DNA of 64,000 bases from contig JACOEK010000004.1 of the NCBI GenBank assembly GCA_024998595.1, forward strand, positions 186,001-250,000, in the 5' to 3' direction. This stretch comes from Nitrospira sp. Lineage in GTDB: Bacteria; Nitrospirota; Nitrospiria; Nitrospirales; Nitrospiraceae. Below the pieces are notes generated by a model. The model saw nothing but the letters and a program-made list of their open reading frames with translations. It made no database searches and was not told the DNA's origin. How positions within the stretch are numbered: position 1 is the stretch's first letter; every line of letters begins with the position of its first letter. Both the position numbers and the translations under genes were made by a program. Of the stretch, positions 10,419-55,914 are shown in pieces.

Positions 10419-10420
10419 GG

Positions 10421-16400: not shown

Positions 16401-18295
16401 GGGCGCGACTCATCGGCTATGTGACAACGCAGGCGGAGCTGCCGGTCGACCCGGCGGCACTGCGCCAGGCCCTGGCGCGCACCCTGCCGGAGTATCTGGT
16501 CCCGGCGGTCGTGGTCCGGCTGGCGCAGTTGCCGCTCAGTCCGAACGGGAAGGTGGATCGGCAGGCCTTGCCGGCGCCGGCGTGGGAGGCGCAGCGCACC
16601 ACGGCCTATGCGGCACCGGCGACGGAGCTCGAACACCGTTTGGCCGCCATCTGGGCCCAGGTGCTCGGCCTCGCCCAGGTCGGCCGCCATGACAACTTCT
16701 TCGAACTCGGCGGGGATTCGATTCTCGGTCTTCAAGTGATTGCGCAGGCCAAACAAGTCGGGCTGTCCCTCACACCGCGACAGTTGTTTCAGCAGCAAAC
16801 GGTCGAAGCCCTCGCTGCGGCGACGCAGATCGAGGCGGATACGGCACCGGTCATACAGGCTGACCAAGGAGTTGTATCGGGGACATTCCCGATGACCCCG
16901 GCCCAACGGTGGTGGTTCGAGCAACGATTGGCGGAACCCCATCACTGGAACCAATCGCTCATGGTTACGATGTCCGAGCCGCCCGATCGCACCAGACTAT
17001 CGCAGGCGATTCAGCGGCTGCTCGATCAGCATGACGGGTTGCGCTGCCGCTTCGATCGTACCGACGGGGAGAACGCCAAAATCGAGGCAGCTTTGTCTTC
17101 CGGCGAGGCCTTAGTCGTGGTCGACCTCGATCATCTCGCCGACACTGAAGTGCCGGCCGCGATCGCACGCGAGGCCGAACGGTATCAACACAGCCTGGAT
17201 ATCGAAGGGGGGCCGTTGTTCCGCGCCGTGCTGTTCCGGTTGGGATCGCACCGACCCGCCACGTTGCTGCTCATCGCGCACCATCTCGTAGTGGACGGAG
17301 TGTCCTGGCGCATTCTGTTGGAGGATCTCCAGCGAGCCTATCTCCATAGGGAGGGAGCTCCATCGACGCCGCAACTCAAAACGACGTCGATCAAACAGTG
17401 GACGGAAGCGGCGCAACATGCCGCCGGGTCCGAAGCCGTTCTGAGCGAGTTGGGCTTCTGGGAGAAGCAGGATTCCCCTCAGGAATGTTCGCTTCCGCTT
17501 GACGATCCTGCGGCAGATCGGACGGAAGCATCCGCAGACACGTGCTCCGTGCAGTTCACCAGAGAGGAGACGGAAGCGCTGTTGCGGGAAGCTCCCGCCG
17601 CCTACCATACGCAGGTGAACGACATCCTGTTGGCGGCCTTGGCCCAAACGTTCCACCGTTGGACGGGGAAGGATCATCTCTTGTTGGATTTGGAAGGTCA
17701 CGGCCGCGAGCCGTTCGTGGCCGGAACCGATCTGTCGCGGACCGTCGGATGGTTCACGAGCATCTACCCCTTCTTGCTGCGGCTTCCCCAGGGCTCGACC
17801 GGTGAGGTGGTGAAGGGGGTCAAGGAGCAGCTCCGGGCCGTCCCTTCAGGCGGGGTCGGCTACGGATTGCTGCGGTACCTGTCCCGCCATCCCGATGCCG
17901 CCGGTCTCCGGCATCAGACCGCTCCGCAGATCTGCTTCAACTATCTGGGTCAACTGGATCGGGGAACGAACGGACAAACGCTCTTTGAGTTGGCCGGCGG
18001 ACCTACTGGCAAGGAGCATGGGGCATCCAACCGCATGCGGTACGAGTTCAACATCAACGCCGACATCACCGATGGCTGCCTCACCGTGAGCTGGACCTGC
18101 AGTGCCGCCAGAGTCTCTCGGGCGACGATGGATATGCTGGCGGCCTCGTACCGCCGACATCTGCGCGAGTTGATCGCTCATTGTTGCTCGCCGGAGGCGG
18201 GCGGCTATACCCCGTCGGATTTTCCGGACGTCCAGCTCGGCCAGGACGACCTCGACACCATTCTTCAGTCCATGGAGCGAAGTCATGCGCGATAA
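10421..18295 (+). CDS. NRPS2: C-A(Dab)-T-C-A(Ser)-T-E
   Basis: This 2624-residue synthetase starts two bases after the NRPS1 stop, with GGAG upstream. C1 ([13 protein letters not shown] near 26) has the variant active site HHILLDEW at 159-166. A1 (TSGSTG near 639, FDISVW 683-688) again reads D-I-W-E-L-T-A-D-D-K, the Dab code. T1 carries Ser1040. C2 ([12 protein letters not shown] near 1102) has HHAIADGWS at 1232. A2 reads the serine code D-V-W-H-L-S-L-I-D-K and is nearly identical to NRPS1 A2. T2 carries Ser2100. The C-terminal domain is an epimerase: [10 protein letters not shown] at 2287, then [14 protein letters not shown] and [10 protein letters not shown]. The serine would therefore be passed on as D-Ser, which fits the DCL-type C domain that opens NRPS3. 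Confidence 0.93.
15020..16722 (+). repeat. Near-identical A-T(Ser) cassette, copy 2
   Basis: This is the second copy of the unit at 8496-10198. It begins after C2 of NRPS2 and ends at the GGDSI core of T2, immediately before the sequence diverges into an epimerase-linked carrier tail. Both flanks differ from those of copy 1, so the exchange covers the A domain and the first part of the T domain only. Confidence 0.95.
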
Positions 18296-21200
18296 CCAGC
18301 ACATCGAAGCTATGTATTATTTGTCCCCGCTCCAGCAGGGGCTGCTCTTTCATCGCCTCGCCGACCCCGCAGCCGATCCGTACTTCTATCAGTATGCGTA
18401 TCGCCTGCAAGGAAACTTGCGCCTCGATGCGTTCGAGCGGGCATGGCAATCGGTGGTGGAGCGCCATGCCGTACTGCGGACGGCGTTCATCTGGGAAGGT
18501 GTGGAGAAACCGCTGCAGGTCGTTCGCCGGCAGGTGGTGCTTCCGATCGAGCGGCACGATTGGCGCGGGGTGCCTGAGGACGAACAACGGCTGCGATTCA
18601 CATCCCTGCTCCAACAGGATCGTGCCGCAGGCATCGATTTGCTCAAGCCACCTCTGATGCGGCTGCATGTGATCCGCCAGGGCGAGCAAGAGTGGGTGTT
18701 GGTCAACAGCCACCACCACATGCTTCTCGATGGCTGGAGCATGGCCATCGTGCTGCGCGACGTGTTGACGGCATACGAGACGTTCCTGCCGGGGCAGGCA
18801 TCGACGTTCAAGTCCCCCCGGCCTTATCGAGACTACATTTCCTGGGTCAATCGGCAGGACATGAAACAGGCAGAAGCTTATTGGCGTGACGGATTAACTG
18901 GCTTCGAGCGTCCCACTCCCATACCGATCGGGGCTCCGTCGGAACACACGCCTGCCGAAACATTGCCGTTTGCAGAACAATCTCTTCGCTTGCCGGCGGA
19001 CAAGGCCGGCTCACTGCAGGCCTTCGCCAAACAGACCAAGGTCACGGTCAATACGGTCCTGCAAGGTGCGTGGGCTCTGCTGTTACATCGCTACAGCGGA
19101 GCCAGAGATCTCGTGTTCGGGGCGACCGTTTCAGGACGGACGCCGGAACTGACCGGCGTGGACGAAATGGTGGGTCTTTTCATCAACAGCTTGCCGATTC
19201 GTGTCACGGTTCGGCCGGAGCAGAAGCTGACGGAGTTCCTGCGCAGCTTGCAGGAGCACAATGCGACACTGCGGCAATTTGAATGGACTCCTCTCAGCGA
19301 CATCCAGCGATGGAGCGACGTTCCCAATGGCACTCCGCTGTTCGAGAGTCTCATCGTATTTGAAAGTTATCCCGAGGCCGACGATGACGGGACTGCACCG
19401 ACGCTGGCCGTCGAACCGCTGGCCGCAGCATCGAGCGGCGCCTATACCCTGACGCAGGGACGCAACAACTATCCGATTTCTCTGATGGTGGAACCGGGAC
19501 GCGACCTCAAGGTCATTGTCTGTTATGCCCATCACCGGTTTGCCCATGCGGCGATCACTCGCATGATCAGGCACCTGGAGCAGCTACTGGCCGCGATGGT
19601 GGAGGCTCCCCATGCATTGCTCGGCAACATCGCTCTGACGGCGGAAGGGGAACAACGGCAATTCGCGGAATGGAATGAATCGTGTTCATCAGGCGAGCCG
19701 GAGCAGACCTGCATCCATCACCTGATTGCCGATCAGATGGAAGCGCATCCCGAGACGCTTGCGGTGGTGACCAAGACGGAGCGGGTAACTTATCGGGAGC
19801 TGGACCGTCGTGCAGACCAATTGGCACGGTACCTGAGGGCGCAGGGGCTACGGTCGGATGACCGGGTCGGCCTTTGTCTCGACCGATCCTTGGATCTGGT
19901 GGTTGGCATCCTGGCCGTACTCAAGGCCGGCGGAGCGTATGTTCCCCTGGATCCGACCTATCCTCAGGAACGCCTCACGGCCATGATTGCCGACAGTGAT
20001 GCGCGTCTCATCCTCAGCCGCAGTGATCAATCTCAAGGACTGGACGGCTGTCCGGCGCGTCTCGTCCTCTTGGATCGCCAAGCGGAGGAGATTGCGGCAT
20101 GCGGTGAATCGGCTCACGCCCTTCCGGTTTCCCCGCACAATCTCGCCTACGTGATTTATACATCCGGTTCTACAGGCCGTCCGAAGGGAGTAGCCGTCGA
20201 ACACCGGCAGGTGACGGCCTATGTGAACGCGATCCTGCAGCTTGAGCCGGTCGCGGCCGGAACAAATATGGCGGCCGTGTCGACGGTGGCGGCCGATCTC
20301 GGTAATACCGCGCTCTTCGGCGCGCTCTGTTCAGGGCGCACGCTTCATCTATTGCCGACCGAAGACAGCTTCGACCCCGATGCGATGGCGACCGCCATGC
20401 ACGACCGGAACATCGAGGTCCTCAAGATCGTGCCGAGCCACCTGCGTGGGCTCCTTGACGCAGCACATCCCGAACATGTGTTGCCTTCGCGTTGTGTGAT
20501 CCTCGGAGGTGAAGCGCTGCGCGGAGAACTGGTCCGGCACATCCGCCGGCTTGCTCCGGGCTGCACCATCGTCAACCATTACGGGCCGACAGAAACCACC
20601 ATCGGCGTGTTGGCCCATGTGGTCGAGGAATCGGCAGACCAGTCGGCAACCGACGCGCCGATCGGGCGTCCTTTTTCATTCGTGCAGGCCCATATCCTCG
20701 ACGGCGTCGGATTACCGGCTCCTGTCGGCGTGCCGGGGGAACTGTACGTCGGCGGCGCGCAAGTGACGCGGGGCTATCTCAACCGGCCGGAGGCAACGGC
20801 AGAGCGGTTCATTCCTGATGCCTTCAGTCGTCGTCCCGGGGCCAGGCTGTACCGTACGGGCGACAGGGCAACCAGACGAACCGACGGGACCATCGAATTT
20901 TTGGGGCGCGTCGATCATCAGGTGAAGATTCGAGGATTCCGCATTGAGCTCGGAGACATCGAGGCGCAATTGCGGCGTGAAATCGGCGTCTCCGATGCGG
21001 TCGCCGTCGTACGCGGACAACCGGACGGTACCCAACAGCTCGTGGCGTATCTGGCAGGGCCTCCTACGCTGGATACCGAAGCCATTCGAACCAGACTGGC
21101 CCGACGCCTTCCCGATTACATGGTGCCGCAGATCTTCGTGCGTCTGGACGCATTTCCGCTGACGGCCAACGGCAAACTGGACCGGAGCGGTCTGCCCGAC

Positions 21201-24200
21201 CCCGGTTTGCAGACCACCTCCGCTTCGACGCCCTACGTCGCGCCGCGAAGCAGGCCCGAGGAGATCCTGGCCGGAATCTGGCAGACCGTCCTGCAGGTCG
21301 AGCGAGTCGGCGTGCACGACAACTTTTTTGCATTGGGCGGCGACTCGATCCGTACGCTGCAGGTGATTGCCCGCGCCAACCGCGAGGGCGTGAAACTGAC
21401 TCCCAAACAATTGTTCGAACATCAGACCATTGCCTCAGCGGCGGCCGTCGCGCAGGTGAAGGAGGCGGCACCGGTCCACGCTGAACCAGTCATGACAGGG
21501 AAGCAGGAGGTCCAATCCACGGCCGTCGAACGCAGTACAGCAATAGAGCCGGCTCCCCCGACGCCACTCGCAAGCTCAGCCTTCCCGAACTTCCCGCTCA
21601 CGGGCCTGACACCGGAGGCCCTAGCGGAGCGACGCCAGGATTGGACAGCGATTGAAGATTGTTATCCCTTGTCGCCGATGCAGGAAGGCATGTTGTTTCA
21701 CAGCTTGATGAATCCCGGTTCCGGCATCTATCTGATGCAGCAGTTTTATGCCTGGGAGGGGACACTCGACCGGGACGCGTTCGGCCGGGCGTGGCAACAC
21801 GTCATCGACCGACATCCGATTCTCCGAACGTCCTTCATGTGGAAAGATCTGCCGGCACCGCTTCAGGTCGTTCACCGCCTGGTCAAGGCGGAGGACGTGA
21901 TTCAGGACCTGGATTGGACCGGCATGAGCGACGCGCAGCAGCAGACCGGCATGGGAGAGTTGCTGGAGCGGGAGCTGAAGCTCGGCCTGGATTTCGATCG
22001 GGCCCCGTTGATGCGGATTCGCCTCGTCCGGCGCAGTCCAGACCGGTATGCCATCGTGCGGAGTTTCCACCACATTCTGACCGACGACTGGTGTTTCTCG
22101 CTGCTGATGATGGACTTTCTCACCCACTACGATGCCTGTCTTCAAGGACAGGTACCGGATCAGCCCAAGCCGACTCCGTACCGCGAGTACATCGCCTGGT
22201 TGCAACGGCAAGATCAGCCTGCGGCGGAACAATTCTGGAAACAGGAATTGGCCGGATTTTCTACTCCGACCCCGCTTGGAATCGAGCGGCTCGACCCTGA
22301 CAGCTCCTCGACCGGAGCCGCCGTGAGCGACGTGTTCATGGAATTGACCCCGGCCGTTTCCGAGCGTCTGCGGACCTTGGCGCAGGACCATCACCTGACT
22401 CCGAATACCTTCGTGCAAGGAGCCTGGGCCATTCTGCTGTCGCGATACAGCGGTGATCCCGAGGTGTTGTTCGGTGTCACGGTCGCGGGAAGACCGACCG
22501 ACTTACCGGGCGTGGAGGACATCGTGGGCCTCTTCATCAACACCCTGCCGCTTCGCGTGACCGTCACGCCGGATCTACCGGTCATGACGTGGCTTCGGCA
22601 CCTCCTGGCGGAGAACTATCGCATCAGACAGTACGAATACGCCCCGTTGGTGCGCATTCAGCAATGGAGCGACGTTCCGTCGGGACAGGCCCTGTTCCGC
22701 AGCCTGCTCGTCTTCGAGAACGCTCCGAAGGATGCGCGGCTCGGAGAAGAACGGGACGACCGATCCCTGTCCTACGATCAGGATCGGGTGCACACGAACT
22801 ATCCCATGACCGTCGTCGGCTATCCCGGCGAGTCGATGGGGGTGCGCCTTTCGTACGATCGGCGCCTCTTCGATTCTACTGATGTGGCGAGGATGTTGGA
22901 CCATCTCAAGCGGTTGCTCGAATCCATGGCCGCGATGCCGGACCGGACGATCCGCGACCTTCCAATGTTGGATGAACAGGAACGGATCCTGTTGCTGACG
23001 CAGTGGAATGCCAGCGATGGCCACGGGCCGGCGATCGATTTTCCTGCCCTGTTCGATGCTCAGGTGCGGAGAACACCCGCGGCGGTAGCGGTGGAGTGCG
23101 GCGACCTCCGGCTGACCTACGACGAACTCAGTCGCGCCGCCGACGGCGTCGCTCGCGGATTACGAGAACGGGGCGTCGGGCCCGATGACATTGTGGCATT
23201 GCTCGACGACAGAAGCCCGGCCCTGCTGTCGATGATCGTGGGAGTGCTGAAGGCCCACGCCGCCTATCTGCCCCTGGATCCTCACCATCCGGGAGAGCGT
23301 CTGTCGCAGATTGTCTCCTCCGCTCGTGTGAAGGTCCTGCTGGCGGGACCGCGCCATGCTGCCTTGGCGTCAACCGTCGTCGGCATGATGGCAGAAGGGA
23401 TGAGACCACTGCTCCTGTCTGTAGCGGACATGAATCAGGATGGGAGAGCAGAAGAACCCGTAGCGGGCGCCACGGTGTCCAACCGCCTTGCCTATGTCAT
23501 TTTCACCTCCGGATCCACCGGCAGACCCAAGGGGGCCATGGTGGAATCGCGGGGGATGATGAATCACCTGACCAGCAAAATCCCGACACTGAATCTGACA
23601 CCTGCGGACGTGATTGCTCAGACCGCTTCGCAATGTTTCGATATCTCGGTCTGGCAATTCCTGACTCCACTGCTCTGCGGTGCCCGCGTGCAGATCATCC
23701 CCGACGAGGTGGTCCGGGATGCGCAACGTCTCTTGATCGAAGTCGCCACGCGCGGCGTCTCGGTGCTGGAGCTGGTGCCCTCCCTGCTGGGTGGATTCCT
23801 GGATGGACCGTCGCTCCCGCTTCCGCAGTTGCGTTGGTTGCTGCCCACGGGCGAGGCCTTACCGCCGGCCCTGTCCCGTCGCTGGTTCACTCGGTATCCG
23901 GACATTCCCCTGCTGAATGCGTACGGGCCGGCCGAATGTTCTGACGATGTGGCCCTGGCCTGCATCCGCGAAGCACCCGCCGAGATCGAGACCAGCATGC
24001 CGATCGGCCGGCCGATCCCCGGCGTGCGCTTGTATGTGTTGGACCGCGGCACGAACCTGATGCCTCCTGGAGTGGCCGGCGAGCTCTGTGTCGGCGGAGT
24101 GGCTGTGGGCCGCGGGTATCTTCATGATCCCGTAAGAACCGCCGAAGTCTTCGTGCCTGACCCCTTTGGATCCGAGCCGGGAAGCCGGCTCTACCGGACC

Positions 24201-27200
24201 GGTGACCTGGTCCGCTACAGGCCTGATGGTGTGTTAGAGTTCGTGGGGCGCCGCGATCACCAGGTCAAGCTCCGGGGTTTCCGCATCGAGCTGGGCGAGA
24301 TCGAGGCGCGGCTGGCTCAGCATCCCGATGTCGACCGTTGCGTGGTCGTCGTGGCCGAGTGGCAAGCGGGACACAAACAGTTGGCGGCCTACGTAGCCAC
24401 GACGGCCACCTTGAATGCCGACGGACTGCGGCTGTTTCTGCGTCGCACGCTGCCTGAATACATGGTTCCGGCCGCCTTCGTCGTGCTTCCTTCCTTACCC
24501 CTCACACCGAACGGAAAGATCGACCGGAAGGCCTTGCCCAAACCGGATGCGGACCGTGTCGGGGATGATTTCGAGCCGCCCGCTACGCCGACGCAGGATC
24601 TTGTCGGGGGAATCTGGTCGGAAATCCTCGGCCTTGAGCGGATCGGACGCCGGGATCAGTTTTTTGAACTGGGGGGGCATTCCCTTCTGGCGACACAGGT
24701 CATGTCCCGCGTGCGCGCGACGTTTCATATCGAACTGCCGTTACGGACGTTGTTCGACCATCCCACGGTGGAGGCGTTTGCTGCGGCCATCGACCAGACG
24801 GTCTCCCAAGGCGAGGGAGCTCAGGCTCCCATGCTGGTGCCGATGCCCAAAACCGACGAGATGCCCCTCTCCTTCGCGCAGCAGCGGCTCTGGTTCCTGA
24901 CGCAAATGGACCCGGAGAGCGGCGCGTATAATTTGCCGTTTGCACTGCGTCTGGGTGGGATGCTGAATCACCGCATCCTTGAGCGGAGTTTTCTCGAACT
25001 GATTCGCCGGCATGAAACGTTGCGGACGACGTTTCCGGCGCTGAACGGGGAACCGCGGCAGGTGATCGTCGAGACGGATCATTTCTCGATCCCCATCGAG
25101 GACCTCACGACCCTGTCGGAGCCCGACCGAACAGCCGCCATCCGGCGGCATGCCGAATCGCAAGCGCATCAGCCGTTTTATCTGGATCGCGACGTGCCGA
25201 TCCGTGCGCTGCTCTTGAGGGTCAGTGCCGATGCCCACATCCTGCTCGTGACGGTTCACCACATCGCCGCCGACGCCTGGTCCCTGGCGGTGGTGACCCA
25301 TGAGGTTGCCACGGTCTACAACGCCTTAGCAGCCCAGGCGGAGTCGTCCGTCAACCGGTCGGTCGAGGCCCCGTCGTCGTTCCTGCCGCCGCTGCCCATC
25401 CAGTATCGGGACTTCGCCCTCTGGCAACGGCAATGGCTGCAGGGGACCGTGCTTGAACGGGAGCTCGGCTATTGGAAACAACGGCTCGGTGCTGCCCCTC
25501 CGCAGCTGACCCTCCCGACGGACCATCCACGGCCCGAGCAACAAAGTTATCGCGGTGGACGAATCGCGTTCCACGTACCGGGAGAGCTGCTCGAGCCGCT
25601 GCGGCGATTGAGCCGGCGCCAGGGCGTAACCCTGTTCATGACGCTCCTCGCCGCGTTCAAGGTGCTGTTGTCCAAGCTGGCCGGACAGCAAGACATTCTG
25701 GTCGGCACGGATGTCGCCAACCGCAACCGCGCCGAAACGGAAGAACTGGTGGGATTCTTTGTGAATTTGCTTCCCCTGCGCACAGACCTCAGCGGGAACC
25801 CGTCGTTCGTTCAACTCCTGGGCCGCGTGCGGGAAACGGCCCTGGGCGCCTATGCTCATCAAGATGTGCCCTTCGAAAAAATCGTGGATTCGCTCAAATT
25901 GCAACGGGACCTCGGCCGGAATCCCTTGGTGCAGGTGCTCTTCGTACTGCAGAACGTGCCGCCGCCTTCGCTGGAGTTATCCGGGGTGAACGTCGAGTCC
26001 CTGGACTTCGAGCACGAAGTTTCGCGGTTCGATGTGGGGCTGTTCATGGAGGAAACGGAGGATGGCTGCGCCGGACTCTGGAAGTTCAGCCGCGACTTGT
26101 TCGAATTCGAGACGATCGCGGGGTGGACGCAGCGCTTCTTGCGGTTGTTGAGTCACATCGGCCTGTCGCCGGAACAGGGGATCGAGACACTGGACACGGA
26201 AGATAGTGAGGCAAAGGAGGCTCGAAAGGTGGATCAGCAGCAACGGAGCGATCAGCGGCTGCAGCGATTCAAGGCGATCAAACCGAAACCCATCGCGTTG
26301 ACTCAGCGTACCTTGGTGACCGGTCGGCCTCTTGTCGAGGGACATGCGATGCCGTGGATCTACACTCCCGCGGTGGAAGACGTCGATCTCGCCGGGTGGG
26401 TGAGGGAGCAACGCAGCCGGTTGCAACGGGAACTGCTCCAGTCCGGAGCGTTGCTGTTTCGTGGCTTCCCGCTCAAGACCGTACAGGACTTTGAATCCGT
26501 CGCCCAGGCCTTCTGCAGCGAACTGTTCGGAGAGTACGGCGATCTTCCCCGGGAAAAGAGCGGCCGCCATGTCTATGGCTCGACGCCGTATCCGTCAGAC
26601 AAACCCATTCTGTTTCACAACGAAAGCTCCCACATGCACCGGTGGCCGCAGAAACAGTTCTTCTTCTGTCTGCAGGCGGCGCAGGAGGGCGGCCAGACAC
26701 CGATCGTGGACGGACGGCTGATGCTCAAGGGCCTTCGACCGGAGCTCCGTGAACGGCTGCGAACCAAACAGTTGATGTACGTTCGAAACTTTCTTCCCAG
26801 CGTGGATGTCAGTTGGCAGGATTTCTTCCGCACGACCGACAAGGCTGTGGTGGAAGCCATGTGCGCCAGGAACGGCTTGGAATGGCAATGGTTGGACAAG
26901 GAAGGCCTGCGTACCAAGCAACTCTGTCCCGCCATCATCGAACATCCCGATACGGCTGAGGCGGTGTTTTTCAATCAGATCCAACTCCACCATGTGGCCT
27001 GTTTGGAACCGGCCGTGCGCGAGTCCTTAATATCGATGCTGGGTGTCGATTCTCTGCCGAGAAACGTCTACTACGGTGACGGCACGCCGATCGAAGACGA
27101 CGTGGTCGACGAAATCGGAGCCTTGTATGAGCGGACCGCGGTGCGGTTTCCGTGGCAGGCGGGAGATTTGATCATGTTGGACAATATGCTCGTCGCCCAT

Positions 27201-27290
27201 GCCCGTGATCCCTTCGTCGGCCCCCGCAAGATCGTCGTCGCGATGGGCGATATGATCGCCCAATCGGCCATTCAGTCCATGACATCGTAG
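18285..27290 (+). CDS. NRPS3: C-A(Asp)-T-C-A(Dab)-T-C-TauD hydroxylase fusion
   Basis: This 3001-residue synthetase overlaps the NRPS2 stop by 11 bases. C1 has [10 protein letters not shown] at 143-152 and, following an epimerase, should be DCL. A1 lacks the usual FDxS and has AADLGNT at 669-675; its code D-L-T-K-I-G-H-I-G-K is an aspartate code. T1 carries Ser1021. C2 ([13 protein letters not shown] near 1127) has the variant HHILTDDW at 1262-1269. A2 (FDISVW 1785-1790) reads the Dab code D-I-W-E-L-T-A-D-D-K. T2 carries Ser2133. C3 ([12 protein letters not shown] near 2193) has HHIAADAW at 2325. No A or T follows C3. Instead a charged linker leads to a TauD-type hydroxylase at about 2686-2995. 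C3 must therefore condense onto the carrier of NRPS4. Confidence 0.93.
26340..27263 (+). other. Fused C-terminal beta-hydroxylase (TauD) domain of NRPS3
   Basis: Residues about 2686-2995 of NRPS3 align with the stand-alone hydroxylase throughout. The iron ligands are His2778 and Glu2780 (FHNESSH) and the distal His2972 (VAHARDPF); Arg2981 is placed for 2-oxoglutarate. Hydroxylases fused to the end of a siderophore NRPS are described as the IbetaH type, giving threo-beta-hydroxyaspartate or hydroxyhistidine. The next adenylation domain (NRPS4 A1) carries an Asp code, so carrier-bound Asp on NRPS4 T1 is the expected substrate. The pairing is inferred from order and code. Confidence 0.87.
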
Positions 27291-27298
27291 GGGAAGGC

Positions 27299-30200
27299 AT
27301 GCGACAGGAGATCGAGGTTCAAGGGCTACGACTCTCGCCGCAGCAAAAGCGGCTCTGGTTGTGGCAACAGCAAGGACAGGTCGGGCCCGCGAGCGCCGTG
27401 CTGACGCTCGATGGATCCTTTGGCGAGAAGGCGGTGCAGGAATCGCTTCGCCAGGTCATGGCTCGTCATGACAGCCTTCGGACGACCTTCTACCGGCAAG
27501 CAGGTATGAAGCTCCCGTTTCAAGTCGTTGGTGAAGGCTCCGAGCTGGATTGGCGCACGGTCGATCTCTGTCATCTGGCAGACGACGTCGAAAAAGAACG
27601 GGCTGCAGACAAGGCTGCGCGCCGAAGTGACGACTTCGATTGGGAACGAGGACCGTTGGTGCGCGCCACGTTCTGTCGTTTCACGGAAACCCATGCTCAG
27701 CTTTTCGTCGATGTGCCCGCTCTCTGCGCCGATATGAGATCGCTCTGGAATCTCGCGCTTGAACTGAGCCGGTCGTTGGGTGGGGGAGGCGAGGCAGCCG
27801 AGGAACCGGTTCAATACGGCCAGTATTCAGAATGGCAGCATGAATTGCTCGAGGGGCAGGAAGCGCCGCAGGGACAAGCCTGGTGGGCTCGCCGTCGCGT
27901 GACCAGCGAACACCGCATCGCCTTGCCGTTCGAGCGCGACTCCTCTCTCGAACAGTTCGAATCCCCAGCGCGACCGGTCCGTCGCGAGCTTTCCGTCTCG
28001 GGCCTCACGCGATTGCGAGACGGGGCGGCGGCTGCAAAGATTTCCCTTCCAGTCTTGCTGTGCGGATGCTGGACGGCCTTGCTGTATCGCATCACCGCGC
28101 GGCGGGATCTCGTCTGCTGGTGGCGATCCGAAGGACGTCCCTACGAAGAGCTGTCCGGCGGGATCGGTTTGTATGAGCGCTGGCTACCGCTTCACCTTCG
28201 GGTCGAAGGAAACATGCAGCTCCGGGATTTTCTCCCATTGGTATTGCGTGAACAGAGCCAAGCGGAAGACTGGCAACAGTACTACCCAGGTGAGCAGGCT
28301 GAAGAAGACCTGCAGGCGGTGAGAGATGCGATCGGCTTTGAGTACACGCAGCGCGCCACGCCTGACAGGACAGCCGCCGGTGTCCTCATGCTGTCAGACG
28401 GCACATTCAGTATCGAGCCTCTCAAAGTACGACTGTCCTGCTTGGAGCATGAGGCAGGCCTCGCCATGAGTTGGCACACGGATCGGCAACGGATCCCGGC
28501 CGAGATCATGGAGAGTCTTGCCGATCGCTATGTGGAATTGCTGCGGCGTCTCCCGCAACAACTCGATATTGCGATCGATGATGTGGACATCGTGGGCAAT
28601 CGGGAACGGATCAGGCTGACCAGGGAACTGAACCAGACCGCTCGAGCCGGCGAGCCTCCGTTCTTGATGCACAGTCTGATCGAAGCACAGGCGAAACGCC
28701 ATCCGGCACACACGGCGCTGGTCGCCGCCTCACAACGGTTGTCCTACGACGACCTCAATCGGCGAGCGAATCGCGTGGCGCATGGACTCCGGCGGCGAGG
28801 GATCACAATCGGCGACCGGGTCGGTCTCTGCATTGATCGTTCCGTCGACATGATTGTCGCCATGCTGGGTGTGCTGAAGGCCGGTGCGGCCTACGTACCG
28901 GTCGATCCGGCCCATGCCACGGTGCGGCTCGCTCCGAACATGGCCCAGAGCGGAGCAAGCATTCTTTTGATCGAGACCGGCTCCAGCCGGCCCGGATCGG
29001 AGTTTTCCGGCGCGACCCTGAATCTCCGGGAGGATTTTGCCGCGGAACCGGATGACGATCTCACGTTAGTCCAGTCGCCGGACGAATTGGCCTACATCAT
29101 CTACACGTCAGGATCGACCGGTCAGCCCAAGGGGGTCGCCGTCTCCCACCGGAACCTGGTCAACTATACGTCGGCCATCACGGAGCGGATGCAACTGCAG
29201 GAGCAGTGGCAGTTTGCGACCGTCTCTACATTGAGCGCCGACTTGGGACACACCGTGGTGTTTCCTGCGCTGACCTCCGGTGGCTGTCTGCACGTCATCG
29301 GGTACGAGACCGCAACGGATGGACAGTCGTTTGCTTCCTACTTGGCGCAGCATCCCATCGATGTATTGAAAATCGTGCCATCGCATTTCAACGCGTTGCT
29401 GGCGACGGGAGAGGGGCATGCCGTCTGGCCGCGTCAGCTACTCGTGTTCGGCGGGGAAACGTTACCGTGGGATTTGGCCGATGCTGTCATGCGACAGGCG
29501 ACCTGCCGTGTCATCAACCATTACGGTCCTACGGAGACGACCGTAGGCGCCACGACCATGATCGTGACCGACGACCCCGACCTCCGTATTGCGCGAAGCG
29601 TTCCCATCGGCCGGCCCATCGACAACCTGGAGGCCTATATCCTTGATCACCGTCAGGAGCCGGTACCGATCGGGGTGGCGGGTGAACTCTATCTGGGAGG
29701 TTTCGGCGTTGCACGCGGCTATTGGAATCAACCGGACCGCACCGCCGAACGGTTTGTCCCCAATCCGCACACATCTCAGCGCGGCGCCCGCCTCTATCGA
29801 ACCGGCGATCGAACCAGGCGTCTGCCGGACGGATCCATCGAGTTTTTAGGTCGAGTGGATCACCAAGTGAAGATCCGGGGATTTCGGATCGAACTCGGGG
29901 AAATCGAGTCGGTACTTCGACAGCATCCGGCTATTCAGGATGCCGTGGTCACCGTCCGGGACGACAAGCAGATCGAACCGTATCTCGCTGCCTATCTCGT
30001 GCCTCGAGGGGTCGCCCCGCACTCCCGAACGATTCAGGACTTTCTCCGCGCTCGCCTGCCGGATTACATGGTGCCGATGACCATCACTGCCTTGCCCGCC
30101 TTGCCCTTGACGGCCAATGGCAAAGTGGATCGCCGAGCGCTCCCGGACCCGGAACGTGATGGGCAGGGTGCGCGACGGTTTGTGGCGCCCGCCACGGCTA

Positions 30201-33200
30201 CGGAAGAAATTCTGGCCGGCATCTGGGCCGATGTCTTGAAACGGGAAGAGATCGGCACTCAAGACAATTTCTTCGACCTGGGCGGGCATTCACTGCTGGC
30301 CACGCAGGTCATGTCGAGGTTACGGAACGCGTTCGTCGTGGAACTGCCGCTGCGGGCGCTCTTTGAGGCGCCTACCGTCGCCCGGCTCGCTCAGATGGTC
30401 GATGCGGCGAAGAGGACTGATCTAGGAGAGCAGGCCCCGCCGTTGACCGCGATTCCCCGAACCGGGCCTATCCCCCTCTCCTTTGCGCAACAACGGCTCT
30501 GGGTGCTTGCCCAGTTGGAGCCGGACAGTACCGCCTATCATATTCCTATCGCCCTGCGTGTCAGGGGAGCGCTCGACGCGGGCGCCCTGGAACGAAGCGT
30601 TCATGAGGTTGTCCGCCGCCACGAATCCTTGCGCACTAAATTTCAACGTCTCAACGGCGTCCCCATGCAAGTCATCGGGCCGGCACAGCCTCTTTCAATT
30701 CCGCTGATCGATCTTCAGCATCTTCCCGATGAGCGGCGCGAGCAGGCAGCCATTCGACTGGCCGCTGTCGAGGCGGAACGACCATTCGACCTCCGGTACG
30801 GACCTCTCTTGCGCGTCAGTCTCATCCGGCTCAGATCTCATGAGCACCTGCTGCTGGTTACCTTGCACCACATTGTGTCGGACGCCTGGTCTTCTCACCT
30901 GTTGGTCAAAGAGCTGACGGAGGTGTATGACGCGTCAGTAGCGGGCCGTCCGTCCTCGCTTCCCGACTTACCCCTGCAATATGCGGACATCGCTCAATGG
31001 CAACGGGCTTGGTTGAGCGGGCGGATTCTTGAACGGGAATTGACCTTTTGGACAGATGTGCTCGGAGGGGAATTGCCCGTCCTCGACTTGCCGACGGATC
31101 GACCCAGACCGGCGGTGCAGACATCACGAGGGGCGATCATCACCTCAACAATCGGCCCTGGCCTTGCCGCTGATCTCAAGACCCTGAGCCGGCAGACGGG
31201 CGCGACACTGTATATGACGCTTCTGAGCGCCTTCTTCATGTTGCTGGCCCGGGAGACGGAGCAATCGGATCTGATCGTCGGCACACCGATCGCGAACCGG
31301 ACCAGGAAAGAAACGGAAGCCCTCATCGGGTTCTTCGTCAATACGCTCGCTATTCGCACGAGGGTGTCTCAGGAGGCCACGCTCAGCGAGGTGATCACAG
31401 CGGTCCGCGAAGCCTGCCTGGAAGCTTATGCCCATCAAGATCTTCCGTTCGAGAAACTGGTCGACGTGCTGCACCCGTCGCGCGACGTCAGCCGGTCACC
31501 CATTTTTCAGGTCATGTTCGATCTTCAGAATGCCCCGATGGCCGAGTTGCAGGTCACAGGATTGGAATTCGAACCGCTCGAGATCGAGAATACGACCGCG
31601 AAGTTCGACCTCTCGATGACGGTGCAGGAAGCAGACGGGGGGTTGATTCTGGGCCTCGAGTACAACAGCGATCTTTTCGACGCCACCACCATCACGCGCC
31701 TCTTGGAGCGGTATGAACTCATTCTGGCCTCGCTGAATCGGAATCTTCGAACCACGGTGGGCTCGATACCCTTGTTGACCTCAGCCGAGCGGCAGGCTGT
31801 ATTAGTGGTGAATCAGACCGACGGTGTTTCAGGGCCTGCCTTGTCGTTGACGACCCTGATCGAACAGCAGGTGGAGCGGACGCCGGCGGCGACTGCGGTG
31901 TCGCTGGAAGGCCACACCTTGTCCTATGCGGCGCTCAACGCCAAGGCCAATCGCCTGGCGCGCTGGCTGCGCAGCCGGGGCGTGGGGCCGGAAGCGCGAG
32001 TCGGGATGTGTCTGGATCGTTCCCTGGATTTGGTCGTCACGCTGTTGGCGATCCTCAAGGCGGGTGGAGCCTATGTGCCGATCGACCCGGTCTATCCGGC
32101 CGCGCGACAGCAGCAGATTGCACGTGACGCAGAACTGAAACTCTTGTTGATCAGCGGAGACATACCGTCTGGGAGCGACGAGTTTCCCATGCCGGTCCAG
32201 TCGTTCAATCACCTGGATGGCGAGCTGCAGGCGTTGGACGACGACAATGTGCCAGGTTCGGCATCTCCGGAGCAAGCCGCCTATGTGATTTTCACCTCCG
32301 GTTCGACCGGCACCCCCAAGGGTGTGGTGATCTCTCATGGAGCCTTGGCCCAGCACATCGCGGCGATCACGGATGCCTATCATCTTGGTTCGAGTGATCG
32401 GGTGCTGCAATTCGCTTCGCTCAGCTTCGACGTGGCGGGCGAGGAGATCTGGTCCGCCCTCGTGGCAGGCGCGGCGGTGATTCTGCAACCCTGCCGTCTA
32501 TTCGATTCGCTTCCGGCTTTTAGCCAGTTTCTCGATCGCCAAGCGGTCACCGTCGCAGGAGTCCCCGCTTCGTACTGGCATGAATGGATCGGCGCCATCG
32601 AGCAGACTGGATTCGTTCCTCAGTCATTGCGACTGGTCATCGTCGGCAACGAGCCGGTCGCCTCCTCCGACCTTGACCGGTGGCAGCGGCACGTCAGTCC
32701 CGCGGTCAGATGGCTCAACGCCTATGGTCCGACGGAAACCACGGTGACCGCCAGCTTGTACGAGCCGGCGCTCTCCGCGTCGGGAAGCGCGCCTTCTACC
32801 GTGCCGATCGGCCGGCCTTTGCCGGGTCGCTCGCTGTACGTCCTGGGCAGGAATCTTGAGCCGGTGCCGTTTGGCGCGCCGGGGGAATTGTACATCGGAG
32901 GGGAAAGCCTGGCCCGTGGATACCTCAATGATCCCAAACGCACGGCCGCGGTCTTCGTGCCGGATCCGTTCAGCGACCGGCCGGGAGCACGTCTCTACAC
33001 AACGGGAGATCGGGTGTTGGTGCGGCGCGACGGCACGCTCGAGTTTCTCGGCCGGTCCGATGATCAGATCAAACTGCGAGGATTCCGTATCGAGCCGGGA
33101 GAGATCGAAGCCTGCTTGCGCCGACATGCCGATGTGGGCGCAGCCCTCGTGCGCGCTCGCACGGATAATGAGGGGCGAGTAAACCTCGTCGCCTATGTGG

Positions 33201-34465
33201 TCCCGAGGGAAGCCGGACCAGTGGAAACGGCGGCACTTCGCCGTTGGCTCGGCACGACCCTGCCGGAGCATATGGTGCCATCCCTTATCGTGCCGTTGCC
33301 GGACCTGCCGCGCACGCCGGCGGGGAAAATCGATCTGAAAGCATTGCCTGCGCCGGAATGGGGACACTCCGGTGGGGAGCCGTCTGCAGCTCCCGCCACT
33401 CCATTACAACGGCAGTTGACAGCGATGTGGAGCGAAGTGCTCGGAGTCGGCCGGATCGGGCTCCACGATAATTTTTTCGATTTGGGCGGCCATTCGCTGC
33501 TAGCCGTTCAGTTGATCGCACGGATTCAGGCGGTGATCGATCGCCCGCTGGGGTTGATGGATCTGTTTCAATGTCCGACGGTTGAGCAGCTGGCCTATCG
33601 ACTCGAAGGGTTGCAGGCGGCTTCCGCGGAAGTGGTGCTGCTGCGCGAGGGCCGCGACCTGCCTCCGCTGTTCTGCTTCGATCCCGATGGCACGCATGTG
33701 CAGGCCTACCGTCCACTGGCCTTGTCTCTGGAGGATGGGCGGCCCGTGTATGGATTGTCTCTGAGTCATCTCTTCACGCTCCGTTGGCAGGAGGTGTCGA
33801 TCTCCCGGCTGGCGGAACGGCAAACCGCATTGATTCGCGAGCGGCAACCGCGAGGACCCTATCACCTGGTGGGCTGGTCGAACGGGGGAGTGCTGGCCCT
33901 GGCGGTTGCTCAGATGCTGGAACGGGCCGGAGAGGCGGTCGCCTTTCTTGGGTTGCTTGATACTCAACCGGACCATGCCTTGTATGCATCGCAGGGACCC
34001 ACGCCGGTGGATGAACTGGTGGCGTACATCCGGCGTGACCGGCGCGAGGCCTTCGATGCGATTGCCGAATCCGAACGCGAGGCCTTGAAGCGACGGTTGG
34101 AGCAATTGGATGAGGAGCACCGCGTAGAAACGGCCATACAGTGGGCGCGGGATCGTGAGTTTCTGTCTCCCGAAGAAGCTGAGGCGTCGATTGGTTCATT
34201 GAAACTCGGGTACGCCTTGGCCAGGGAAGCAGCACGGTTTCTCGGCATCACCCGAGGCGGTCCCATTCATGCACCGGCTCATGTCTGGTGGACCACGGCA
34301 ACCACCTCCCGCTGGGGAAAGGGGCCGGTCGACTGGTCGGAGCACACGACGGGCCCGGTGTCCGTGGAGACGGTGGTAGGAGACCACATGGACGCTGTCT
34401 ACAGCATCCATGCCCATCAACGTATCGGCGAGGCCCTTGCCGCTGTCGAGAACGTGCAATCTTAG
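27299..34465 (+). CDS. NRPS4: degenerate C (interface-like)-A(Asp)-T-C-A(X)-T-TE
   Basis: This 2388-residue terminal synthetase starts 8 bases after NRPS3. The N-terminal domain is condensation-like but lacks the HH dyad. A1 has SADLGHT at 646-652 and reads D-L-T-K-V-G-H-V-G-K, an Asp code. T1 carries Ser998. C2 has HHIVSDAW at 1190. A2 has an unusual FDVAGEEIW at 1710 and reads D-V-E-G-I-G-A-V-T-K, which I cannot assign; Glu at the third position occurs in codes for ornithine- or lysine-like residues. T2 carries Ser2066. The thioesterase has GWSNGG with Ser2194, a LLDTQPDH segment and His2363 (GDHMD), and would release the peptide as acid or macrocycle. A terminator-like hairpin follows the stop. 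Confidence 0.92.
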   Translation: MRQEIEVQGLRLSPQQKRLWLWQQQGQVGPASAVLTLDGSFGEKAVQESLRQVMARHDSLRTTFYRQAGMKLPFQVVGEGSELDWRTVDLCHLADDVEKERAADKAARRSDDFDWERGPLVRATFCRFTETHAQLFVDVPALCADMRSLWNLALELSRSLGGGGEAAEEPVQYGQYSEWQHELLEGQEAPQGQAWWARRRVTSEHRIALPFERDSSLEQFESPARPVRRELSVSGLTRLRDGAAAAKISLPVLLCGCWTALLYRITARRDLVCWWRSEGRPYEELSGGIGLYERWLPLHLRVEGNMQLRDFLPLVLREQSQAEDWQQYYPGEQAEEDLQAVRDAIGFEYTQRATPDRTAAGVLMLSDGTFSIEPLKVRLSCLEHEAGLAMSWHTDRQRIPAEIMESLADRYVELLRRLPQQLDIAIDDVDIVGNRERIRLTRELNQTARAGEPPFLMHSLIEAQAKRHPAHTALVAASQRLSYDDLNRRANRVAHGLRRRGITIGDRVGLCIDRSVDMIVAMLGVLKAGAAYVPVDPAHATVRLAPNMAQSGASILLIETGSSRPGSEFSGATLNLREDFAAEPDDDLTLVQSPDELAYIIYTSGSTGQPKGVAVSHRNLVNYTSAITERMQLQEQWQFATVSTLSADLGHTVVFPALTSGGCLHVIGYETATDGQSFASYLAQHPIDVLKIVPSHFNALLATGEGHAVWPRQLLVFGGETLPWDLADAVMRQATCRVINHYGPTETTVGATTMIVTDDPDLRIARSVPIGRPIDNLEAYILDHRQEPVPIGVAGELYLGGFGVARGYWNQPDRTAERFVPNPHTSQRGARLYRTGDRTRRLPDGSIEFLGRVDHQVKIRGFRIELGEIESVLRQHPAIQDAVVTVRDDKQIEPYLAAYLVPRGVAPHSRTIQDFLRARLPDYMVPMTITALPALPLTANGKVDRRALPDPERDGQGARRFVAPATATEEILAGIWADVLKREEIGTQDNFFDLGGHSLLATQVMSRLRNAFVVELPLRALFEAPTVARLAQMVDAAKRTDLGEQAPPLTAIPRTGPIPLSFAQQRLWVLAQLEPDSTAYHIPIALRVRGALDAGALERSVHEVVRRHESLRTKFQRLNGVPMQVIGPAQPLSIPLIDLQHLPDERREQAAIRLAAVEAERPFDLRYGPLLRVSLIRLRSHEHLLLVTLHHIVSDAWSSHLLVKELTEVYDASVAGRPSSLPDLPLQYADIAQWQRAWLSGRILERELTFWTDVLGGELPVLDLPTDRPRPAVQTSRGAIITSTIGPGLAADLKTLSRQTGATLYMTLLSAFFMLLARETEQSDLIVGTPIANRTRKETEALIGFFVNTLAIRTRVSQEATLSEVITAVREACLEAYAHQDLPFEKLVDVLHPSRDVSRSPIFQVMFDLQNAPMAELQVTGLEFEPLEIENTTAKFDLSMTVQEADGGLILGLEYNSDLFDATTITRLLERYELILASLNRNLRTTVGSIPLLTSAERQAVLVVNQTDGVSGPALSLTTLIEQQVERTPAATAVSLEGHTLSYAALNAKANRLARWLRSRGVGPEARVGMCLDRSLDLVVTLLAILKAGGAYVPIDPVYPAARQQQIARDAELKLLLISGDIPSGSDEFPMPVQSFNHLDGELQALDDDNVPGSASPEQAAYVIFTSGSTGTPKGVVISHGALAQHIAAITDAYHLGSSDRVLQFASLSFDVAGEEIWSALVAGAAVILQPCRLFDSLPAFSQFLDRQAVTVAGVPASYWHEWIGAIEQTGFVPQSLRLVIVGNEPVASSDLDRWQRHVSPAVRWLNAYGPTETTVTASLYEPALSASGSAPSTVPIGRPLPGRSLYVLGRNLEPVPFGAPGELYIGGESLARGYLNDPKRTAAVFVPDPFSDRPGARLYTTGDRVLVRRDGTLEFLGRSDDQIKLRGFRIEPGEIEACLRRHADVGAALVRARTDNEGRVNLVAYVVPREAGPVETAALRRWLGTTLPEHMVPSLIVPLPDLPRTPAGKIDLKALPAPEWGHSGGEPSAAPATPLQRQLTAMWSEVLGVGRIGLHDNFFDLGGHSLLAVQLIARIQAVIDRPLGLMDLFQCPTVEQLAYRLEGLQAASAEVVLLREGRDLPPLFCFDPDGTHVQAYRPLALSLEDGRPVYGLSLSHLFTLRWQEVSISRLAERQTALIRERQPRGPYHLVGWSNGGVLALAVAQMLERAGEAVAFLGLLDTQPDHALYASQGPTPVDELVAYIRRDRREAFDAIAESEREALKRRLEQLDEEHRVETAIQWARDREFLSPEEAEASIGSLKLGYALAREAARFLGITRGGPIHAPAHVWWTTATTSRWGKGPVDWSEHTTGPVSVETVVGDHMDAVYSIHAHQRIGEALAAVENVQS
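27326..28620 (+). other. Condensation-like domain without HH dyad (candidate interface domain)
   Basis: Residues about 10-440 of NRPS4 begin with LSPQQKRLWLW and keep the overall C-domain pattern. At the catalytic motif, however, the sequence is FVDVPALCADMRS (Asp138 onward) instead of HHxxxDGWS, so peptide-bond formation is unlikely. It sits directly after C3-TauD of NRPS3 and before an Asp adenylation domain. Noncanonical C-family 'interface' domains that position carrier-bound residues for a beta-hydroxylase are known in siderophore NRPSs. That this is one of them is inference. Confidence 0.72.
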
Positions 34466-34567: not shown

Positions 34568-37500
34568 TTATCCCTGAGAATGCGACGGGTAGGGTAGGAC
34601 GTTGCCGAGCTTCGCTCCAGCCGTGGCGGCTCGCCTGGTTGCCCATCGTTCCGGCAACATCGTATAGATCACGGGCACCAGGAACAGGGTGAGGAGCGTC
34701 GAGAGGACGAGACCGTTGATGACGACCAGACCGATGTGCCAACGGCCTGCCGCGCCGGCGCCGGAGGCCAAGGCCAGGGGAAGGGCGGCCAGGATCGTCG
34801 CCATCGTGGTCATGATGATGGGCCGCAGTCGCAGTACCGAGGCTTCGACGATGGCCAGGTGGACGGAGCGGCCGTCGAGCCGGAGCTGATTGGCAAACTC
34901 GACGATGAGAATCGCGTTTTTCGTCACGAGTCCGATCAGGATCATCAAGCCGATTTCACTGTAGATATTCAGCGTGCCGCGGAACAGCAAGAGAGCCAGC
35001 AATGCGCCGGCCATCGCCGGTGGAACCGACAAGAGGACCGTGACCGGATGGCGGAAGCTTTCAAACTGTGCGGCCAGAATGAGATAGACGACCAGCAAAG
35101 CCAGGACAAAGATGAAGTGCAGATTTCCGGACGACTCCTTGAACTCTTTCGTCTCTCCCGCGTAACTGATGCTGGCGCCGACGGGCAGGTGTTTCCTGAT
35201 GATACTCTCCAACGCGTCGATCGACTGACTTAGCGTAGAGCCGGGTCCAACTCCTGCGCTGATCGTGGCGGCTCTCAGCTTCTCGTAATGGTTGAGTTGT
35301 TTCGGGGCGACGGTCTCGCTCAGCGTGACCAGATTGCTGAGGGGAATCAAATCACCCCGGCTTCCTTTGACGTGGAGATGGTCGATATCCGTTTTGGTGC
35401 CGCGGTGGTGAGGCCGCGTCTGCATGATGACCGGATATTCCTTACCTTCGCGCATGAACATGGACGATTTTCGTCCGCCCAAAAACACTTCCAGCGTCCG
35501 GCCGATCGTTTCGACTGGAATGCCCAGGTCGGCTGCCTTGTCGCGGTTGATCTCCACCCGCAACTCGGGCTTGTTCAAGTCCAGGTCACTGTCCACGTTG
35601 ACCAAGGCAGGGTGTCCTGCTGCCTCGTGCCGGACTTTCGTGACGATCTTTTCCAAGACGTCGTATGCCGGGCCTCGCACCACCAACTGCACCGGCGTCT
35701 TGCTGTCTTCCTGGTTGAACGGCGGCGGATTCAGCGCGAAGACGGTGGCGCCGGGAATGGCTGAGAGGGCCGGTTCAACGGTGTTGATGATGTCCCGTTG
35801 AGCGCGGTCGCGGTCGGACCAATCCTTGAGCGTCACCCACGTGACGGCTCGATTCACCAATGTCGGGCGCGACCCCCTCGCCACCACGGTGTAATAGGAG
35901 TCCATCTCAGGAATGCCTGCGGCCTGTTGTTCGCTGTCTTTGGCATACCGGTCCGTGTAGTCGAGGGTCGCTCCTTCCGGCGCGCTCACGTGAATCGCAA
36001 ACCAGCCGGTATCTTCGAGGGGCGCCAGCTCATTGGGAAGCATCCAGAACAGCAGGCCGCTGAGGGCCAGGGAGAGGAGGGCCGCAAGCATGACCAGCGT
36101 GGGCCGTTGCAGCGCCAGCTCCAAGGCGGCTCGATACCGCCGGGTAAGCCATTGCAGCCATGCAGAGGCATCCAGGGCGGAGCCCTGTGCGGGTGATCCG
36201 GCGGTGACTGTCGAACCCAAGAGCCTCGCACACATCGCCGGCGTGAGGGTCAAAGCGATGAAGCCGGACAGGAGAACCGAGCCTGCGACCGCGATTCCCA
36301 ATTCCGCAAACAAGCGTCCCACGATACCGGGCAGGAAAATGATCGGGAGGAAGACCGCCGCGAGGGTCAACGTCGTCGAGACGACGGCGAACCCGATTTC
36401 CCGGCTGCCTGTGAACGCGGCCTCCGTTGGACTCATTCCCTGTTCGATGCGCCGGTAGACATTCTCCACCACCACGATGGCGTCGTCCACCACGAGCCCG
36501 ATCGCCAGCACGAATCCCAGTAAGGTGATGGTGTTGATCGAACTGCCGGTCACCTGCATCAGCACGAACGTGCCCAGGATCGACCCCGGAATCGCCACGG
36601 TAGGAATCAACGTCGCCTTGGCGCTGCGCAGAAAGAGAAAGACGACCATGACGACCAACAGCACGGAGATGCCCACGGCTTCGTAAACTTCTTTCAGCGA
36701 CCGTTCGATGTAGATGGAGCTGTCGAAGGCCGTGACGAGGTTCATGCCTTCGGGCAGCAGGGACTCCAGAGAAGGGAGGGTGCGTTTGACGGCGCGCGCG
36801 GTCTCCAGTGTGTTGGCCTTCGACTGCTTCATGATGCCAAGGCCGATCGCGGATTTGCCGTTGACGCGAACCAGTTTTCTTTCGTCTTCCGGGGCGATTT
36901 CCGCAATCCCGACGTCTTGCAGGCGGACCGGGTAGCCGTCACGATAGGCCAGGATCAACTGATTGAATTGAGAAGGCTGCTCCAACCCTCCACCCATCCG
37001 CACGCTGAACTCGCGTTGGGTGCTTTCGATTCGTCCCGTGGGCATGGAGACGTTCTGCGTTCGGAGGGCATCTTCCACGTCCTGCACGGTAAGGAGCCGT
37101 GAAGCGAGCCGATCGGGATCCAGCCAGATGCGCATGGCGTAGCGGCGTTCACCGTCGAGCATCACATTCGAGACGCCCGGCAGCGGCGCGAGCCGATCCT
37201 TGAGTTGACGCTGGGCGAAATCGGTCATGTCCAGTTCGCTGTGCCGGTCGCTGATCAAGGCCAGCCACATGATGCCGTCGGACTCGCTGTCTTCCTTCAT
37301 GACCAGCGGCGGTTCGATGCCTTGAGGCAGCAGGTACTGCACCCTAGTCACGCGATCGCGCACGTCATTGGCGGCGGCATCCAGGTTGCGCGTGAGCGCG
37401 AATTCGAGGTTGATGGCGGAGAGGCCTTCCCTGCTGGTCGAACGCAAGGTTCTGAGCCCCTCGACGCCGCTGAGCGCGTCTTCCAGCACGGAGGTGATGT

Positions 37501-37684: not shown

Positions 37685-37703
37685 AGGGGTATGCCGTAGG
37701 AGG

Positions 37704-49156: not shown

Positions 49157-49290
49157 ATCGTCTCCTTTCAGCGGTGGGCACAGTTCACACGAGCCACATC
49201 GCATACAGGACGACGGGGAGACCTCACACTCCCTATTCCGTACGACATTTTTTACGATCGCACGAGCAAGGGGTGTCTCGTGCGGAAATT

Positions 49291-49314
49291 GCCGAAGATG
49301 AACGTTTCTTCGGC
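49291..49314 (-). terminator. Hairpin at the end of fecR-type gene 1
   Basis: The arms GCCGAAGA and TCTTCGGC pair perfectly with an 8-base loop, 12 bases beyond the FecR stop on the - strand, followed by AATTTCC. It may attenuate read-through into the receptor gene, as is common between fecR and fecA. A second hairpin (CGCACGA/TCGTGCG, 49259-49284) follows closely. Confidence 0.5.
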
Positions 49315-49325
49315 GGACAGAACGG

Positions 49326-50342: not shown

Positions 50343-50423
50343 GATAGATCCTTCTCAGCCTGGCACGCTGAAGCGGGATATCGCTGAGAATAATGGGTTT
50401 GTCGGATCGACTCAAGGGCGGAG

Positions 50424-51029: not shown

Positions 51030-51263
51030 GCGGCGTTTCAACAGGCAGCGAACATATTGGGTTTCCCGTCCTATGGCGGAGTTTCGACAGCAGAACCACC
51101 CTAACAGAGGTCCTGGTCTGGCTGAATGTTCCGTTTCCTGAAATGGTGCCCATAGATGAGATTTTCGATGATGCGACTACAACGGTAGCCTCGAGGTAGG
51201 GTTTTGACGAGTTCATACGTCATATGTAGATGGGAGGAGTGTCTCCAGGGGGGGCCGTACCGT

Positions 51264-55904: not shown

Positions 55905-55914
55905 AGTCAGGGTC

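Follow-up and report, generated by a model that had tools for sequence, protein, structure and literature searches.

We describe here the junction between two nonribosomal peptide synthetases (NRPSs) encoded in a Nitrospira sp. genome of 4.23 Mb, within a stretch of 64,000 nucleotides (nt) of one contig (bases 186001-250000, referred to hereafter as the window). Annotation of domains with Pfam and hidden Markov models (HMMs) placed four collinear NRPS genes with eight modules at 3906-34465 of the window. The third synthetase, NRPS3, ends in a condensation (C) domain and a TauD-type hydroxylase domain, and the fourth, NRPS4, starts with a C-like domain whose catalytic dyad is lost, followed by an adenylation (A) domain of the Asp type and a carrier (T) domain. 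Our results make it very likely that the two protein ends form an interface-type aspartate beta-hydroxylation station, split over two proteins, in a probable siderophore cluster. This reading is based on the domain order, the lost dyad, clade membership, the Asp-type code of the A domain, the conservation of the split and the linkage between TauD type and interface type.

The dead domain at the NRPS3/NRPS4 junction

The domain order given in a preliminary description of this DNA held up. Pfam placed no A or T domain in NRPS3 after its last C domain (residues 2190-2645) and the TauD domain (residues 2697-2986), and the short tail SMTS follows straight after the latter. Hydroxylase and dead domain lie on different proteins, as the stop codon of NRPS3 at 27290 and the ATG of NRPS4 at 27299 are 8 bp apart and the two genes are in different frames. 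The first domain of NRPS4 lacks the HH dyad, both catalytic His residues being replaced (by Pro and Ala) in the sequence DVPALCAD, with the Asp kept. It is followed by an A domain with the code DLTKVGHVGK, which we take to be Asp-type, and by a T domain with the motif GGHSL. The TauD domain of NRPS3 matched PF02668 (E 6.7e-50), and four of its residues (H131, E133, H325 and R334), presumably the Fe(II)/2-oxoglutarate site, were invariant across 10 aligned sequences.

Residues 11-439 of NRPS4 matched the Condensation family PF00668 (E 1.9e-40) and thus have the condensation fold; the 22 sequence matches in the PDB were C-type domains of other synthetases, an X domain among them. Within its own genome the next-best match to the domain was much weaker (E 1e-21). 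For a wider comparison, 116 loci collected by TauD alignment were examined: the best 80 of 406 genome-contig loci (mostly from Nitrospirota and Cyanobacteria), 8 plasmid loci and 28 loci drawn from the 398 genomes in the same phylum as genome G061. Interface and C domains were called with HMMs trained on the window and its relatives, with a tree as the check, and C calls include epimerization (E) domains. Domains below a length cut-off were dropped (about 300 residues for the motif count, 380 for the trees of C and interface domains, 250 for the TauD tree). On a common HMM alignment, in which no intact motif reappeared in the NRPS4 domain, the second catalytic His was present in 1 of 118 interface calls compared to 313 of 320 C calls. 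The sole interface call that carries it is an internal, epimerase-like domain of locus L027 with an intact HH (HHLVVDAVSW), and the tree placed this domain outside the interface clade. The Asp of the HHxxxDG motif was kept in all 118 interface domains.

In the tree of 430 tips, 115 of the 116 interface candidates formed one clade (support 1.0, branch length 0.44) that contained none of the other 315 tips. The window domain belongs to this clade and not to the ordinary LCL or DCL domains, and the N-termini of the cyanochelin B synthetases CcsL (identified by its accession in the paper) and CcsI (identified by position) are members as well. The reference set of the tree consisted of the cyanochelin B domains and uncharacterised proteobacterial relatives, and the interface assignment rests on the tree and the motifs. 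Reitz et al. in 2019 are said to have described interface domains as non-catalytic members of the C family and to have proposed that they position the hydroxylase and the carrier-bound residue. Our results support the assignment of the NRPS4 N-terminal domain as an interface (I) domain, a subtype of the C superfamily. I is listed among the bacterial C subtypes (PMC10212144) and antiSMASH 8 includes profiles for interface domains (PMC12230676).

Split stations and hydroxylase types across loci

The preliminary description had taken the split between hydroxylase and dead domain to be the remarkable part of the station. The split is real but it is not unusual. Neighbouring TauD and interface domains were on separate frames in 118 of 118 pairs and fused in none (95 of the 116 loci, from five phyla and not independent of one another), with frames read from stop to stop, so that a frameshift would resemble a split. 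These pairs are made up of 9 from plasmid loci, 101 from genome-contig loci and 8 from proteobacterial loci, some of which share a contig or genome, and the gap exceeded 300 nt in 12 of the 118. Other neighbours in the same loci were split less regularly, with 54 splits among 252 T-C neighbours and 23 among 115 C-TauD neighbours. The split is therefore the general layout for TauD-interface pairs in the loci examined, and it has been published for the potashchelin and cyanochelin B systems.

Among 144 TauD domains, 90 were terminal in an NRPS with the interface domain next on another frame and 28 were stand-alone with an interface domain next. The remaining 26 comprised stand-alone domains before an A domain (14) or a C domain (3), seven without a following domain in the locus, one fused domain likewise without one, and one fused domain ahead of a further TauD. 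The split was also present in three further loci and at both cyanochelin B stations. Of 61 related genomes, 13 matched the window domain at E <= 1e-35. The same genus, represented by 29 genomes when this one is counted, accounts for 10 of these, and in those 10 the upstream frame stops 7-9 bp ahead of the start codon and carries the TauD C-terminal signature. In four other loci a TauD-type end lay 21, 59 and 454 bp upstream in three and was absent in one (L023). Loci L011-L023 were left out of the count of 118 and were split by stop position in 12 of 13 cases, although 6 of the 13 repeat contigs counted elsewhere. Two loci were arranged differently. In Trichormus variabilis ATCC 29413 (L030:12001-17158), a C-TauD of another type (HNEFSY) precedes an I-A region that is broken into two frames and mostly has no annotated gene. 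In L108:11783-12900 a second, stand-alone TauD lies between a C-TauD end and an interface domain.

By an alignment-based count, the A domain after an interface domain was Asp-like in 96 of 105 cases compared to 23 of 178 other A domains, and the T domain after I-A carried GGHSL in 93 of 103 cases and GGDSI in 9. Fused TauDs formed a clade (support 0.99) with 92 of the 93 fused domains, including that of the window, and two stand-alone ones. The domain that follows a fused TauD was an interface domain in 90 of 92 cases, and 85 of the 90 fused-clade TauDs that precede an interface domain carry HNESSH. Interface domains beside stand-alone TauDs formed their own branch (23 of 26, support 0.87), from which domains of fused pairs were absent. 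Because fused and stand-alone partners group separately in both trees, TauD type and interface type are linked by descent, which fits a specific pairing of the two. The fused TauD of the window adjoins an Asp-activating module with an interface domain, as in hydroxylases of the IbetaH-Asp type. The Nitrospira hydroxylase sequences may also go under the later CyanoBH names. One proteobacterial genome (G254) encodes a stand-alone TauD of the fused type without an NRPS domain in a short locus, in addition to a normal C-TauD/interface station (L116 and L133).

The Nitrospira genome has two TauD matches, and the second, stand-alone enzyme (2848-3912) shares 46% identity with the fused one across the matched region. 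It falls in a different clade of 21 members (support 1.0). In none of the loci of the other 20 members does an interface domain come next, three of these loci having no further domain in view. In the window this gene precedes NRPS1, whose first C domain is ordinary. The Asp-type module of NRPS3 has a T domain with GGDSI, in agreement with the T-domain rule described for stand-alone enzymes (PMC10391617), and is probably the module served by the stand-alone TauD. With two hydroxylase types and two Asp modules, two hydroxyaspartates are therefore predicted, as reported for the potashchelins.

Proposed mechanism, alternatives and docking

In the mechanism we propose, the first A domain of NRPS4 would load Asp onto the first T domain (T1), and the interface domain at the start of NRPS4 would receive both T1 and the TauD domain at the end of NRPS3. 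The TauD domain would hydroxylate the beta carbon of Asp, and the last C domain of NRPS3 would couple the upstream peptide to this residue. If hydroxylases fused to NRPSs follow the rule quoted for them, the product would be L-threo-beta-hydroxyaspartate. Binding in trans, hydroxylation on T1, its timing relative to condensation and the identity of the product are all predictions made from sequence.

The structure predictions addressed a surrogate for the split pair. In 12 loci a single stop codon separates a TauD frame from an interface frame in the same register, and reading the stop as Gly gave a single chain for AlphaFold (query from L034, an N. defluvii metagenome-assembled genome; 52 alignment rows, 12 of them joined). 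The first 50 of 845 PDB matches found for the surrogate with Foldseek were C-type domains or larger NRPS pieces that contain them, and the X domain of teicoplanin synthesis was among the matches.

Several points weigh against our interpretation. The contact between TauD and interface domain and the activity of the hydroxylase are both deduced, and the class assignment has the tree and the motifs as its basis. The surrogate reached a mean predicted local distance difference test (pLDDT) score of 82.0 and a predicted template modelling (pTM) score of 0.58, at which the domains are modelled but the placement of TauD relative to the interface domain is not fixed; the same is true of the window's own C-TauD (mean pLDDT 79.6, pTM 0.50). 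Nine of the 105 A domains after interface domains were not Asp-like in the alignment (four D(L/A)TK(I/V)GEVG, one DAWQFGLID and four apparently misaligned), and 3 of the 26 interface domains beside stand-alone TauDs fell outside their branch. The papers also disagree on the stereochemistry produced by embedded TauDs: the cyanochelin B paper (PMC12628792) and the abstract and results on potashchelin (PMC7100376) report S or L-threo, the variochelin paper reports erythro, and the potashchelin introduction says the reverse of its own abstract (PMC7100376).

Four other explanations were considered. The first domain of NRPS4 could be an ordinary C domain that decayed recently and is redundant behind the working C domain of NRPS3, as the C fold, the lost dyad and the position behind that working domain would allow. 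We regard this as highly improbable, since the lost dyad and a conserved PxLCAD-like signature run through a whole clade in several phyla and this clade stands apart from the other C and E tips. A different catalytic role for the interface domain, such as gating or editing of the aspartyl residue, with a TauD that acts independently of it, would account for the motif Asp in 118 of 118 domains and for one Gln, one Gly and one Pro kept in all 109 aligned domains. However, this Asp has a structural role in C domains, and the linkage by descent between interface type and TauD type also makes such a role improbable.

Both TauD genes are intact and there are two Asp-type modules, so the stand-alone enzyme might hydroxylate the Asp of NRPS4 and leave another residue to the fused one. 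This exchange of targets is decidedly improbable given that an interface domain comes next in 0 of 20 clade relatives of the stand-alone TauD, compared to 90 of 92 fused TauDs. The idea that the split is an artefact of assembly or a frameshift, with NRPS3 and NRPS4 in truth one protein, draws on the 8 bp between the genes; it carries negligible weight because the boundary recurs in related genomes and in finished plasmid sequences where the genes are annotated separately.

The junction also differs from others in its tails. We scored a docking-like stretch as a 12-mer with at least four Asp/Glu and three residues of the set LIMVF, a criterion set after the tails in the window had been seen. 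Such a stretch was present in the tail of the upstream protein at 36 of 54 T/C junctions, where the tail had a median length of 26.5 residues, and at 22 of 41 C/C junctions, with a median of 21 residues (E domains counted as C). It was present at 0 of 118 TauD/interface junctions, where the median tail was 0 residues. Because the split is obligatory, no fusion was seen in any case and acidic docking tails are absent at the junction, the TauD/interface pair might itself dock the two synthetases and so be an enzymatically active natural docking device, although we hold this to be doubtful. Stand-alone TauDs are also tail-less before A (0 of 14) and C domains (0 of 3), and the missing tail may simply be a TauD trait. 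The C domains before stand-alone TauDs have tails of about 30 residues with a docking-like stretch in 1 of 23, and both the late choice of the criterion and the dependence among lineages further weaken the idea. Neither an obligatory TauD-interface split nor docking by the pair was found stated in those parts of the literature on interface, TauD and docking that were searched, a search that covered papers outside subscription.

Locus layout and comparison with known systems

The module order of the assembly line is C-A-T-C-A-T in NRPS1, C-A-T-C-A-T-E in NRPS2, C-A-T-C-A-T-C-TauD in NRPS3 and I-A-T-C-A-T-TE in NRPS4 (Table 1). The locus combines enzymes that would form a chelator (two hydroxylases with two Asp-type modules) with NRPS genes and iron-uptake genes (TonB receptors, FecR and an ECF sigma factor), and is a probable peptide siderophore pathway of a Nitrospira species.

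Table 1. Positions of the features discussed, in window coordinates
Feature	Position	Strand	Basis
Stand-alone second TauD gene	2848-3912	+	HNEQAY and QAHLFH signatures
NRPS1 (C-A-T-C-A-T) and NRPS2 (C-A-T-C-A-T-E), upstream modules	3906-18295	+	domain annotation
NRPS3	18285-27290	+	3001 residues, ends C-TauD
NRPS3 A1 (code DLTKIGHIGK, Asp-type) and T1 (GGDSI), probable target of stand-alone TauD	19731-21446	+	code and motif reading
Last C domain of NRPS3, intact HHIAADA, TauD directly after	24864-26198	+	Pfam residues 2190-2645
TauD hydroxylase domain, last of NRPS3; HNESSH and QIQLHH signatures	26331-27275	+	Pfam residues 2697-2986 of 3001
Junction: SMTS 4-residue tail, stop, 8 bp with GGGGAAGG ahead of NRPS4 ATG	27276-27298	+	sequence reading
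NRPS4	27299-34465	+	ATG start, starts with interface domain
Interface domain (dead C-like domain), first of NRPS4	27299-28636	+	PF00668, tree
DVPALCAD, altered HHxxxDG site	27710-27733	+	translation, HMM alignment
NRPS4 A1, code DLTKVGHVGK (Asp-type)	28682-30124	+	code reading
NRPS4 T1, GGHSL, presumed hydroxylation site	30209-30403	+	domain annotation
Iron-uptake context: two TonB receptors, two FecR, TonB-like, ECF sigma, AraC-type regulator	46571-57347	-	gene annotation

Other features of the locus touch the assembly line or its surroundings. NRPS1 and NRPS2 each contain a Ser-type A-T module (8496-10198 and 15020-16722, respectively); the two are 99.8% identical across 1703 nt, which points to recent duplication or gene conversion, or else to an assembly collapse. 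The code DIWELTADDK, which we take, with some doubt, to specify perhaps diaminobutyrate, is common to NRPS1 A1, NRPS2 A1 and NRPS3 A2, and NRPS4 A2 has the code DVEAVVAVTK. Ahead of the cluster (78-2828) are genes for a type II thioesterase and an acylase of the penicillin-amidase type, and the station of Leptolyngbya boryana is likewise flanked by an acylase, a thioesterase and a TonB receptor; this arrangement suggests removal of an acyl chain during maturation. An RND transporter and an HlyD-type membrane fusion protein, a possible export system, adjoin NRPS4 on the opposite strand (34568-38783), and the large subunit of a phage terminase (gpA type) lies toward the right end of the window (59053-61008).

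Metallophore clusters of the NRPS type are not new in Nitrospirota, as the table of a 2026 survey counts 16 such regions in 15 of 307 genomes (PMC12971057). Two points are new: the Nitrospira member combines its station with an additional hydroxylase, stand-alone and from a different clade, and with another Asp module, and none of the 118 TauD/interface junctions has a docking-like tail. Hydroxyaspartate-type siderophore machinery with two hydroxylase types is thus described in a Nitrospira, and the testable question arises of how NRPS subunits meet at a junction without a separate docking tail. If the pair does dock, TauD/interface pairs could be used to link NRPS subunits as natural, enzymatically active docking domains.

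Among known systems, the X domain of glycopeptide synthetases (4tx2/4tx3) also has a condensation fold that is catalytically dead and brings an oxygenase to a peptide bound to its carrier. In contrast to the interface domain, it recruits cytochrome P450s, lies near the thioesterase and forms a separate sequence group. The aspartyl hydroxylases of the IbetaH-Asp and TbetaH-Asp types (Reitz et al. 2019) are reported to have a non-catalytic C-family domain beside the hydroxylase and to come as two types with different partners.

Potashchelin from Halomonas sp. MG34 (PMC7100376), compared by its description, has a synthetase, PtcB, that ends in C-TauD with the first Asp module on the next protein, and one fused and one stand-alone hydroxylase for two Asp modules. 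Its assembly differs in that it starts with a fatty-acyl ligase and yields nine residues with a hydroxamate, and that description does not call its second C domain an interface domain.

Cyanochelin B from Leptolyngbya sp. NIES-3755 (AP017310.1; PMC12628792) likewise has an NRPS that ends in C-TauD, followed by a separate protein with a dead domain of the LPALCAD type and A-T. A stand-alone TauD precedes CcsL, which also starts with a dead domain. The product is a siderophore with threo-beta-hydroxyaspartates, and the residue of the Asp module CcsI, which the NRPS-fused hydroxylase precedes, was found to be threo (PMC12628792). Unlike the Nitrospira system, cyanochelin B is made by a hybrid of polyketide synthase and NRPS and has another peptide, and both of its hydroxylases have an interface domain, in contrast to the second one of Nitrospira.

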